Below, one piece after another: positions 17,545 to 22,586 of a stretch of DNA of 47,701 nucleotides. The position numbers and the translations under genes were made by a program. Location: contig PBLC01000009.1 of NCBI GenBank assembly GCA_002721675.1, forward strand, positions 7,063 to 54,763, given 5' to 3'. Every line of letters starts with the position of its first letter. The first letter of the stretch is position 1. The stretch comes from Chloroflexota bacterium (GTDB taxonomy: Bacteria; Chloroflexota; Dehalococcoidia; Lucifugimonadales; Lucifugimonadaceae). The notes beneath the pieces were generated by a model. The model was not told the DNA's origin. It saw only the letters and a list, made by a program, of their open reading frames with translations, and searched no databases.

Positions 17545-19746
17545 TTAATTAGCAATATTTTCTGCAATAATTTCTAGTATATGTTTTGGTTCGTGAGCAG
17601 AGAAGTCTTCTATTTGGTGTCTACAAGAAACCCCTGTAATTGCGACTTGTGTATTTCTTTCAATGTTATTTAGATAGGGGATTAGTCTGTCATTAGCTAT
17701 TCTTTTTGAGATATCGTAATGCTCTTTCTCATAACCAAATGCCCCTGCCATTCCACAGCATCCTGATGGGATTTTTTCTACTTTAGAATTAGGTATTAGT
17801 TTTAGTGAATCTACAGATACATTTTCTCCTGAAATAGTTTTTTCGTGACAATGTATTTGGACAGCATATGATTTTTTTTCTGGATTATCTTTAAATTTAA
17901 TTTTATTCAAATTAGTAGGATCAGTAATTATTTCCTGCAATAAATATGTATTATTAGAAATTTGATCTGCTCTTTCATCTTCTGGGAACATATCCGGATA
18001 TTCATCCTTTAAAGCTGAAATACAACTAGGCTCAGCTCCCACCACAATTGCTCCTTCTTTTACATGCTCATATAATTTATCAATATTGTATTTAGCATTT
18101 TTCTTAGCAGACTCTAATAACCCTTTGGAAATTAATGGTCTGCCGCAACACTTTTTATCAATCAAAGTAACATTATAATTTAAAGATTTTAGTATTTTTA
18201 TAGCAGATAATCCTACTTCAGGATGATTATAATTTGTAAATGTGTCATGAAAGAATACAGCAGTTCTATTACTACTATTTGAATCTGATTTATATAATTT
18301 CTCAAATGAATAAGAAGCTATCTTTGGAATGTTTCTTCTTTTATCGATTTTTAATAGATAATCGGAAAAAAGTTTAAAAATAAATAATTTTCTAGTTAAG
18401 TTAAAAATACTTGGAAATATTGATCCAATTTTATTTAGAATTGCTATATTACCAGTTAACCTTGACCTAATAGGAATTTTATTTTTTTTATAATATTGGT
18501 GTAAGAATTCGTATTTGATTTTGGCCATATCTACACCAGAAGGACACTCTGACCTACAAGTTTTACACTCTAAACATAAATCTAAAACATTAAATAATTT
18601 TTTGGAATTTAATTCTTTTATGGGTAGTTTGCCTGATAATGCAGCTCTTAGTGCATTTGCTCTTCCTCGAGTTGAATCTACTTCATCTCTAGTTGCCATA
18701 AATGAAGGACACATATATCCAGAGTTAATCTTTTTGCAAGCAGCTTGACCATTACACATTTCAACAGCCTGAGCAAACCCTCCTTCTTTTTTAAAAGAAA
18801 GAAAAGTATCTGTTATTTCCGTTTTATAATTTTTACCAAATCTAAGATTAGAATCCATAGGAGGTGTTTCTATTATCTTTCCAGGATTCAGTATATTTTT
18901 GGGATCAAATGCCTTTTTTAAATCTTTAAAAGCAGAGTATACTTTTTCTCCGTACATTTTTTTTGTCCATGCACCTCTTACAATTCCATCTCCATGCTCC
19001 CCGCTAAATGCACCTCCAAACTCAAATACTAAATCAGAAATATCACTCGATATTTTTACCATCTTTTTTATATCTGCCTCTGATTTAAGATTTATCAGTG
19101 GCCTTATATGAAGACATCCCACTGAAGCATGTCCATAATATCCCGCTGTAGTTCCATTACTTTTTACGATTTCATCAAACCTTCTAACATATTCAGGTAA
19201 TTTTTCGGGAGATACTGCAGTATCTTCAACAAAAGGAATTGCTTTAGCTTCTCCAGGTTTTTTCATAACTAAACCTAATCCGGCTTTCCTCATATTCCAT
19301 ACTTTTTCTTGCTGGATAGAGTCCATCACAATTGTACTTGATAAAGCTAATTTTGAATTTTGAATTTTTGAATTAAGTTTTTCTATTTTATCTTTAACTT
19401 CAAGTTCATTTTCACCATAAAATTCCGCAACTATTATATCTGTAGGGTCACCTTTTAAATAATCAACTCCTGAAGCAAATTCAGAAGATTTTTTTGCTTC
19501 ATTGATAATAATTTCACCTATATGTTCTACCGCTGAGGGGCCAAATTCAAGAGCATATATTGAAGCTTCCATTGATTTGATAATATCCGAGAATTCTATT
19601 ACTAAAAGTCCTTTATTCTTGGGTAGTTCTACTAAATCTAACTCTGCTTCTATAATTGTAGCTAAGGTGCCTTCAGAACCAACTATTAACTTGGTTAAAT
19701 CAACATCCCCGCCTTTATTAATCTCATCTAAATTATATCCACCCAC
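17545..19746 (-). CDS. FAD-linked oxidase/Fe-S reductase, C-terminal part of a frameshifted D-2-hydroxyacid dehydrogenase
   Basis: This 733-residue frame holds the rest of the FAD-linked oxidase (VGGYNLDE, LIVGSEGTLATI, then SGEHGDGIVRG). A ferredoxin-like region follows, with CNGQAACKK/CPS and CLECKTCRSECPSGVDM cysteines, and then two CCG domains (CCGRPLIS and CCGMAGAFGYE). The architecture matches YdiJ/GlcD-GlcF fusions that oxidise D-2-hydroxyglutarate or D-lactate. The listed start is a GTG in mid-domain with no spaced ribosome-binding site, so it is not a real start. The frame joins the upstream ORF when one A of an A9 tract (19768-19776) is removed. Confidence 0.88.
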   Translation of the reverse strand: MGGYNLDEINKGGDVDLTKLIVGSEGTLATIIEAELDLVELPKNKGLLVIEFSDIIKSMEASIYALEFGPSAVEHIGEIIINEAKKSSEFASGVDYLKGDPTDIIVAEFYGENELEVKDKIEKLNSKIQNSKLALSSTIVMDSIQQEKVWNMRKAGLGLVMKKPGEAKAIPFVEDTAVSPEKLPEYVRRFDEIVKSNGTTAGYYGHASVGCLHIRPLINLKSEADIKKMVKISSDISDLVFEFGGAFSGEHGDGIVRGAWTKKMYGEKVYSAFKDLKKAFDPKNILNPGKIIETPPMDSNLRFGKNYKTEITDTFLSFKKEGGFAQAVEMCNGQAACKKINSGYMCPSFMATRDEVDSTRGRANALRAALSGKLPIKELNSKKLFNVLDLCLECKTCRSECPSGVDMAKIKYEFLHQYYKKNKIPIRSRLTGNIAILNKIGSIFPSIFNLTRKLFIFKLFSDYLLKIDKRRNIPKIASYSFEKLYKSDSNSSNRTAVFFHDTFTNYNHPEVGLSAIKILKSLNYNVTLIDKKCCGRPLISKGLLESAKKNAKYNIDKLYEHVKEGAIVVGAEPSCISALKDEYPDMFPEDERADQISNNTYLLQEIITDPTNLNKIKFKDNPEKKSYAVQIHCHEKTISGENVSVDSLKLIPNSKVEKIPSGCCGMAGAFGYEKEHYDISKRIANDRLIPYLNNIERNTQVAITGVSCRHQIEDFSAHEPKHILEIIAENIAN

Positions 19747-20449
19747 CCTTCTTTGTATTTTTGGGAATTTTTTTTTCTAATTCATCTGTGTATTCCTTAA
19801 ATAAATTTAACGAATTGCTATAAATATTTGACTCCAAAGAACCCTTGTTTAGTAGACTTTCAAATCTATTAAATGATAATTTTTCAAATTTATGGTTATT
19901 ACCGTTTGAAAGGATAGTCTCTAGGCTGGAGACATGGTCAATTGTTTTCCCGTATATTACAGAGTGTGCTCCACAAGAATTATTTCCTATTACTCCACCC
20001 ACAGTTGCCCTATTTGTAGTACTTGGATCGGGTGTAAAGAGCAAATTCATAGGTTTTAGGTAGCTATTTAATGTATCTATTGTGATTCCTGGCTGCGTTA
20101 TTATTTTTTTATTATTTTTATCAAAATCAATAACTGAATTTAAATATTTTGAAAAATCAATTACTATCGCTCTATTTACAGTCTGCCCAGACAGACTTGA
20201 ACCACCACCTCTTGGTAATATAGCGATATTATTTTCATCTGCGATTTGGACTATAGTTTTTACGTCATTAGTATTTTTTGGTATCGCTACACATAATGGA
20301 ATTATTCTGTAAATAGAGGCGTCTGTTGAATATATTTCCCTAGTAATTTCATCAAATCTAACTTCTCCGCTAATTTCTCTTAGAAGTGTCTTTTTTATAG
20401 AATCTTCTATCTCATCTGCAGAGTAATTATTTGATATTTTTTGAACCAT
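19733..20449 (-). CDS. FAD-linked oxidase, N-terminal part of a frameshifted D-2-hydroxyacid dehydrogenase
   Basis: This 238-residue fragment carries the start of the FAD-binding domain: AILPRGGGSSLSGQTVNRAI and GNNSCGAHSVIYGKT are the flavin-binding stretches of GlcD/D2HGDH enzymes. It ends out of frame (KNTKKGGWI) where relatives read PKIQRRVGGYNLDE. Dropping one A from the A9 tract gives EKKFPKIQRRVGGYNLDE and a continuous protein of roughly 970 residues. So this is one gene split by a single-base indel, either real, rescued by slippage, or a sequencing error. The ATG is preceded by AAGGAAAAAG and overlaps the terC end by 23 bases. Confidence 0.85.
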   Translation of the reverse strand: MVQKISNNYSADEIEDSIKKTLLREISGEVRFDEITREIYSTDASIYRIIPLCVAIPKNTNDVKTIVQIADENNIAILPRGGGSSLSGQTVNRAIVIDFSKYLNSVIDFDKNNKKIITQPGITIDTLNSYLKPMNLLFTPDPSTTNRATVGGVIGNNSCGAHSVIYGKTIDHVSSLETILSNGNNHKFEKLSFNRFESLLNKGSLESNIYSNSLNLFKEYTDELEKKIPKNTKKGGWI

Positions 20450-21412: not shown

Positions 21413-22279
21413 CTATCTATTTGAGCTTGAGGTAATCTTATACTCTAAAGTACCTGAAGGACTCTTAACACTAACGATTTCTCCTTTAGCTTTTCCAAGA
21501 ATTGCTTTGCCGACTGGAGATTCTGATGATATTTTTGAATTTAAAGGATCTGCTTCATGAAAATCTACTACCTGGAAAGAATGAACTTCTTTATTATTTT
21601 GGTTCTCAATAGTTACCTTTGTTCCAATATTTATTTTGCCCTTCAATAAGGATTGAGATCCATCATCTATAATAATTGCACCTCTCATTAAATTTTCTAT
21701 ATCTGTTATTTTAGCCATAACCATACCTTGGGCTTCTCTCGCTGCTTCAAGTGGTGCATTTTCTCTTACGTCACCATCTGCCGCAGCATTTTGAATATCA
21801 ACCGCTAAATCCATCTTTTGTTTATTTAACTTATCTAATTGGCCAATTAAAGTTTTGTATCTACTTCTTGTTAGTTTCGGCCCTTCTTCAAATGTAGAAA
21901 CCTTATTCTTAGTTCTTTTATTGGTTAGGATTCTTTTAGATCTTAAATGTGATGGAATATTTAGATCAGTTTTGATCAATTCATTATTATGTAAAAACCC
22001 CAGAAACTTTTTTACTGAAGCAAGCCTAGATTGGGTGTCAGTATTAGCCATTCTAGAAGTAATTTGTTGGCTATAGTCCCCTACTTCAGGAGGCTTTAAA
22101 TTTGATAATAATTTTTCTTCACCAATATTAGTAACAAAATCAGCTACAACCGCTCTCTCATTCATTCTTTCGGAAATTGGTATTGTTTTTACATAGTACT
22201 TCAAAGCTTCTATCATATTAGATTCTGAAGTTAATTCAATTTCACTTTTTACTTCCTCGATGTTTGTCTTTTTTGCCAT
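21413..22279 (-). CDS. GreA/GreB-type transcription factor with an extra N-terminal integrase-like domain
   Basis: This 288-residue protein is much longer than GreA (about 158). The C-terminal part (about 135-285) is a full Gre module. Its coiled coil has a tip GDVRENAPLEAAREAQ with the acidic pair D170/E173 used to stimulate RNA polymerase transcript cleavage, and a C-terminal FKBP-like domain with SPVGKAILGKAKGE follows. The first 115 residues are foreign to Gre proteins. ALKYYVKTIPISERMNERAV and SRLASVKKFLGFLHNNELI look like the helical core-binding domain of tyrosine recombinases, with no catalytic domain. The gene is divergent from rpmH. Confidence 0.82.
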   Translation of the reverse strand: MAKKTNIEEVKSEIELTSESNMIEALKYYVKTIPISERMNERAVVADFVTNIGEEKLLSNLKPPEVGDYSQQITSRMANTDTQSRLASVKKFLGFLHNNELIKTDLNIPSHLRSKRILTNKRTKNKVSTFEEGPKLTRSRYKTLIGQLDKLNKQKMDLAVDIQNAAADGDVRENAPLEAAREAQGMVMAKITDIENLMRGAIIIDDGSQSLLKGKINIGTKVTIENQNNKEVHSFQVVDFHEADPLNSKISSESPVGKAILGKAKGEIVSVKSPSGTLEYKITSSSNR

Positions 22280-22436: not shown

Positions 22437-22586
22437 ATGACTAAGAGAACATATCAACCAAAAAAAAGAAAAAGAGCAAGAACTCACGGTTTTCGTGTGA
22501 GAATGAGAACCAAAAGTGGAAGAAATATTCTTAAAAGAAGGCGAGTCCGAGGAAGGAAGCTTTTAACTGTTGTCTCAAAACAATAG
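22437..22586 (+). CDS. rpmH: 50S ribosomal protein L34
   Basis: This 49-residue, Arg/Lys-rich protein is too short for the supplied ORF track. It reads [19 protein letters not shown], followed by [24 protein letters not shown], the complete L34 pattern. L34 is a late-assembling large-subunit protein. It heads the conserved rpmH-rnpA-yidD-yidC-jag cluster, though dnaA, its common upstream neighbour, is absent. rnpA begins 9 bases after the stop. Confidence 0.97.

Follow-up and report, generated by a model that had tools for sequence, protein, structure and literature searches.

The usual picture of a Gre factor is a small protein whose one route to RNA polymerase is the secondary channel. GreA and GreB (PF03449 and PF01272; E. 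coli GreA, 1grj) combine a coiled coil, a globular C-terminal domain, and a D..E pair of acidic residues. In E. coli GreA, D41 and E44 contact the catalytic Mg2+ and account for the activation of cleavage (PMC7527559). Gfh1, a Gre-like factor from Thermus annotated as anti-cleavage, has the same fold, and two NCBIfam families, PRK14720 and PRK06330, hold Gre proteins with large N-terminal extensions. In a different group of proteins, the recombinases XerC and XerD possess a four-helix core-binding (CB) domain, and integrase-type folds also occur in the phage proteins MrpR (8a0a, described as a regulator) and SroF (9rd5, solved on DNA).

The window analyzed here, a 47,701-nucleotide stretch of a Chloroflexota genome (family Lucifugimonadaceae), encodes a protein in which these two kinds of module are joined. 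It shares with GreA and GreB the coiled coil, the C-terminal domain, and the acidic pair, but its N-terminus is longer by about 120 residues, which include a CB domain, and its tip reads ENAP where that of E. coli reads ENAE. With XerC and XerD it has in common the four helices, by profile and by fold, and basic positions of the fourth helix; unlike them, it has no catalytic domain, is joined to a Gre, and has changed residues at the invariant Xer positions T22 and Y26. The PRK14720 and PRK06330 models, spanning 906 and 718 positions, likewise have sequence ahead of the Gre, but the window protein matches their Gre end, at 66 and 36 bits against cut-offs of 714 and 697. In relation to Gfh1, it keeps the catalytic pair. 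MrpR and SroF, which emerged from the fold search with the CB domain, are chains of about 320 residues with no Gre, whereas the window protein consists of a CB domain alone plus Gre.

No description of a CB-Gre architecture was found in the literature searched (open-licence PMC). The passages of one paper that deal with GreA of Dehalococcoides mccartyi record the protein as detected and acetylated, with no mention of an extra domain, and place the acetylation of the CBDB1 protein (cbdbA743) at K17, more so in stationary phase (PMC7918482). Residue 17 is not a lysine in the Dehalococcoides-like fused proteins L095, L099, and L102, where a strain or start-codon difference is possible; given this mismatch, the modification was set aside as evidence on the fused Gre.

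A Xer-type core-binding domain fused to GreA

The fused gene is read from the minus strand, with its ATG at 22279 and its stop codon ending at 21413, and encodes 288 amino acids (Table 1). In a single-sequence search of genome contigs, its closest relatives were 69–95% identical across all 288 residues. The gene adjoins terC and is divergent from rpmH-rnpA-yidD-yidC-jag, an arrangement confined to the window's family, so the neighborhood carries little information on function. Promoter and terminator scans returned no more than the level of shuffled sequence. Between the fused gene and rnpA, a 49-residue frame on the plus strand (22437–22586) resembles ribosomal protein L34 (rpmH). Elsewhere in the window, on the minus strand at 17545–20449, a gene for an FAD-linked oxidase/Fe-S protein appears as two overlapping reading frames with a frameshift near an A run; it is unbroken in the relatives L002 and L003, and the split reflects an assembly error or a recent mutation.

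Table 1. Features of the fused gene in window coordinates.
Feature	Coordinates	Strand	Basis
Fused gene, CB domain + linker + GreA	21413..22279	-	ORF, translation
Xer-type CB domain including basic tail, residues 21-116	21932..22219	-	NCBIfam XerC/XerD, hhalign, fold search
CB fourth helix, residues 80-98, with R85 and K90	21986..22042	-	Model, alignment of 99 homologues, Xer alignment
Basic motif N-L-x-x-H-L-R-x-R/K-K/R closing the CB domain, residues 107-116	21932..21961	-	Alignment
Linker, residues 117-134, little conserved, low model confidence	21878..21931	-	Model, alignment
Gre coiled coil, residues 135-202	21674..21877	-	PF03449
Acidic catalytic pair at the tip, residues 170-173 (D-V-R-E)	21761..21772	-	Aligned to E. 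coli GreA D41/E44
Gre C-terminal globular domain, residues 213-284	21428..21643	-	PF01272

A full GreA occupies residues 135–284, with matches to PF03449 (GreA_GreB_N) at residues 136–202 (E 2.5e-12, 47.2 bits against a cut-off of 24.5) and to PF01272 (GreA_GreB) at residues 213–284 (E 7.3e-21, 74.4 bits against 26.9). The solved relatives are GreA, GreB, and Gfh1. The protein falls below every NCBIfam GreA equivalog cut-off, the best score being 126 bits against the 145 of NF001263. Its tip reads DGDVRENAP, with D170 and E173 aligned to D41 and E44 of E. coli GreA, and both acids are kept in all 99 distinct fused homologues.

Identification of the N-terminal region required more than the window protein itself: a Pfam scan matched nothing there, and the XerD model reached only E 0.07 on the isolated N-terminus. 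As the single sequence was insufficient for CB detection, homologues were collected, and profile–profile and fold comparisons were needed. When the isolated N-termini of 29 fused proteins were each scanned singly, 17 matched NCBIfam XerC (best 5.7e-6) and 17 matched XerD (best 1.5e-5). Comparison of the fused N-termini by hhalign with an alignment of 22 XerC/D-type proteins out of related genomes gave a probability of 96% and E 4.5e-9 over 94 columns, covering the CB domain alone. Run against PDB sequences with hmmsearch, the N-terminal profile stayed at chance level, with the integrase domain 3nrw, for one, at E 0.96.

AlphaFold2, supplied with a shallow alignment of five closely related sequences, predicted four N-terminal helices in the full protein (residues 22–32, 35–52, 63–75, and 80–98); the CB domain modelled alone had a mean pLDDT of 73.7 and a pTM of 0.66. 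In a Foldseek search of this model against the PDB, the best 29 matches were all tyrosine-recombinase or integrase-fold structures, none at E 0.001, with probabilities up to 1.00 and TM-scores mostly of 0.5–0.6. The full-length model retrieved Gre structures at the top, followed by weaker matches to lambda Int, Tn1549 Int, XerA, and isolated integrase N-terminal domains, among which HelD and several unrelated proteins also appeared. Domain scans found no recombinase catalytic domain with a nucleophilic tyrosine in the window protein, where the remainder of the chain is Gre.

Residues from about 21 to 116 are thus a Xer-type core-binding domain, with a resemblance far above chance, and the fused architecture is real and well supported. 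An earlier note, prepared from the letters of the window, had described at 21413–22279 a Gre module with an intact acidic tip, preceded by a helical region resembling the core-binding domain of tyrosine recombinases but without their catalytic domain. Its coordinates are exact, with the qualification that the reading frame is on the minus strand, and its account of the tip, the N-terminal resemblance, and the absent catalytic domain agrees with all of the above; the predicted N-terminus is integrase-like, neither unrelated in structure nor disordered. No known standard Gre subfamily with such an extension turned up among the libraries and papers examined; the fusion is, however, standard for the class Dehalococcoidia.

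Distribution and descent in the Chloroflexota

A survey of 400 sampled Chloroflexota genomes with the N-terminal profile (E <= 1e-7) matched 81 of them, almost always with a single copy per genome. The fusion was present in 49 of the 54 sampled genomes of the Dehalococcoidia class, and the other 32 positive genomes belong to a limited set of other Chloroflexota families. The loci recovered have the CB and Gre domains within one reading frame, and the domain order that the earlier note proposed to survey is accordingly shared across the class. Three of the five negatives within the class come from family f45, yet the f45 members inspected do have a more divergent CB domain ahead of the Gre. In the f45 proteins L250, L252, and L253, this divergent domain is itself preceded by a long acidic N-terminal extension.

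The complement of Gre genes differs among families. In the window's family, the GreA_GreB domain scored above its cut-off in 69 of 76 genomes, one copy each and always in the fused form, within frames of 281–366 residues; all 26 high-quality genomes were positive. Complete single-contig genomes of family f39 (taken as Dehalococcoides and relatives) hold the fused Gre only, and the remaining families of the class commonly have one fused and one short Gre.

When only the Gre domains were placed on a maximum-likelihood tree, with 45 sampled fused proteins, short forms, and E. coli GreA included, 44 of the 45 fused proteins formed one group (96/90), with the short forms and E. coli GreA all on the opposite side. 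The exception, a protein of family f113, falls next to the short forms on a very long branch, in an unsure position. A single fused clade fits one origin and largely vertical inheritance, and the tree is consistent with an essentially single origin of the fused Gre followed mainly by vertical descent. An origin as phage cargo lacks support: a search of viral contigs, phages, and plasmids found no relative of the fused protein, their matches fall mainly in the Gre half, none spans 80% of the query, and the widest plasmid match is an ordinary 158-residue GreA.

Two Gre proteins, from G136 (L244) and G137 (L245), bear the fused-type tip DKD[VF]RENAPL without a CB domain. Both outscore other unfused Gre on the Gre profile of the fused clade, and that of G137 retains a lysine-rich N-terminus, which suggests that the CB domain was probably lost at least twice. 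Two lineages without the domain imply that it can be dispensable, and one reading is that the N-terminal region is a relic of evolution that does nothing by itself, in a protein that works as an ordinary GreA. The low identity of the domain to the window copy outside the genus (26–37%) points the same way. Such a reading is nonetheless improbable, given that 49 of 54 sampled class genomes and 32 genomes from other families have retained the CB domain, and that several of its positions are 90–100% conserved between families.

Catalytic acids of the short paralogues

The short Gre proteins of the Dehalococcoidia class differ from the fused form at the residues on which cleavage depends in E. coli GreA. 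None of the 48 sampled keeps both catalytic acids: 40 have neither, 7 the D only, and 1 the E only. The usual tip in these proteins (L035-L064, L172-L190) is GGTV[D/N]NAEY instead of GDLKENAEY. The sample was drawn partly from best Pfam matches and partly from all second copies in the order, with concordant results, and the tips of additional short Gre of the class, read from their sequences, were likewise altered. Elsewhere in the Chloroflexota, 15 of 21 short Gre keep both acids.

Both acids occur in 99 of 99 fused proteins and in 0 of 48 short ones, which apparently leaves the fused protein as the only Gre of the Dehalococcoidia class competent for cleavage. This status, which goes beyond the original observation, is the most interesting part of the analysis. 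Judged by their tips, the short paralogues may be cleavage-dead factors of the secondary channel, and it is the short paralogue, not the fused protein, that may resemble an anti-cleavage factor such as Gfh1 in role.

Possible DNA contact by the core-binding domain

The most constant charged N-terminal positions among the 99 fused proteins are basic: R85 (K/R in 97%), K90 (100%), R113 (99%), K115 (89%), and R116 (94%), accompanied in the tail by N107 (81%) and H111 (89%). Opposite R85, K90, and R116, the aligned Xer positions hold K or R in 100%, 100%, and 86% of sequences; this coincidence of basic columns has a Fisher p of 0.005 in an alignment that is similarity-driven and so not fully independent. 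Tethering to DNA, as the earlier note envisaged, is plausible, since the two helix-4 positions invariantly basic in Xer are 97–100% conserved here. The mean charge of the CB core is +0.6 in fused proteins, compared with +3.7 for the Xer CB domain, and the fused tail adds +4.9.

The explanation favored here, at somewhat better than even confidence, sees the protein as a general cleavage factor that would use its CB domain and basic tail to grip DNA weakly beside the polymerase, probably without strong sequence specificity. Early in the Dehalococcoidia lineage, a general GreA would have been joined to a Xer-derived CB domain. The Gre coiled coil would enter the secondary channel of RNA polymerase and bring D170 and E173 to the active site, where backtracked RNA would be cut through this pair. 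Outside the channel, the CB domain and the basic HLRxRK tail, connected through a flexible linker of some 18 residues, would keep a grip on duplex DNA close to the polymerase; this may make the factor locally more concentrated at stalled complexes or prolong its stay there. This model draws on the identification of both domains by profile and fold, the intact pair, the sole-Gre status, the single clade, and the basic positions shared with Xer. Against it stand the near-neutral CB core, the changes at T22 and Y26, the two CB-less Gre with a fused-type tip, and a fold model built on five sequences.

Several of these same observations bear on the main rival, that the CB domain has become a protein-docking module binding RNA polymerase or a partner protein instead of DNA. 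Eukaryotic TFIIS has an N-terminal helical bundle comparable to such an arrangement. A near-neutral core and the altered T22 and Y26 would suit docking, as would the identity of the most conserved residues besides the basic ones (F48, W51, G53, Y69, F92, and L93), although the helical core alone would explain much of this hydrophobic conservation. Against docking stands the K or R at positions 85, 90, 113, and 116 in 94–100% of homologues, three of them at Xer basic positions, and this reading is considered rather unlikely.

The idea that the domain recognizes a particular sequence, such as dif-like sites, and recruits the Gre to certain genes or the terminus derives some appeal from the homologous domain of XerH, which provides most of the base-specific contacts (PMC5241119). 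It is the least probable of the readings, and the tethering to particular loci raised in the earlier note is not supported. The protein is the only Gre in many genomes, where a general role is required; the invariant Xer residues opening helix 2 are altered; and the gene looks like a vertically inherited housekeeping gene, with no conserved neighbors across the class beyond the window's family.

Taken one step further, the general DNA-gripping factor leads to a tentative proposal, held with limited confidence: a DNA-clamped cleavage factor would have replaced free GreA throughout the class, with rescue dependent on protein–DNA contact and the short Gre acting as a cleavage-dead competitor for the channel. 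If true, this would be a two-part arrangement of rescue and restraint, for which the papers searched describe no counterpart in other bacteria. In practical terms, a protein annotated as "GreA" by length or name in the Dehalococcoidia class may be the degenerate copy. In SAR202, abundant bacteria of the ocean, and in the dechlorinating Dehalococcoides group, the only catalytically intact Gre apparently bears a putatively DNA-binding domain derived from a recombinase, and the paralogue of ordinary size has lost its catalytic acids; the question that follows is whether rescue of RNA polymerase in these organisms depends on contact with DNA, and whether the short paralogue opposes it.
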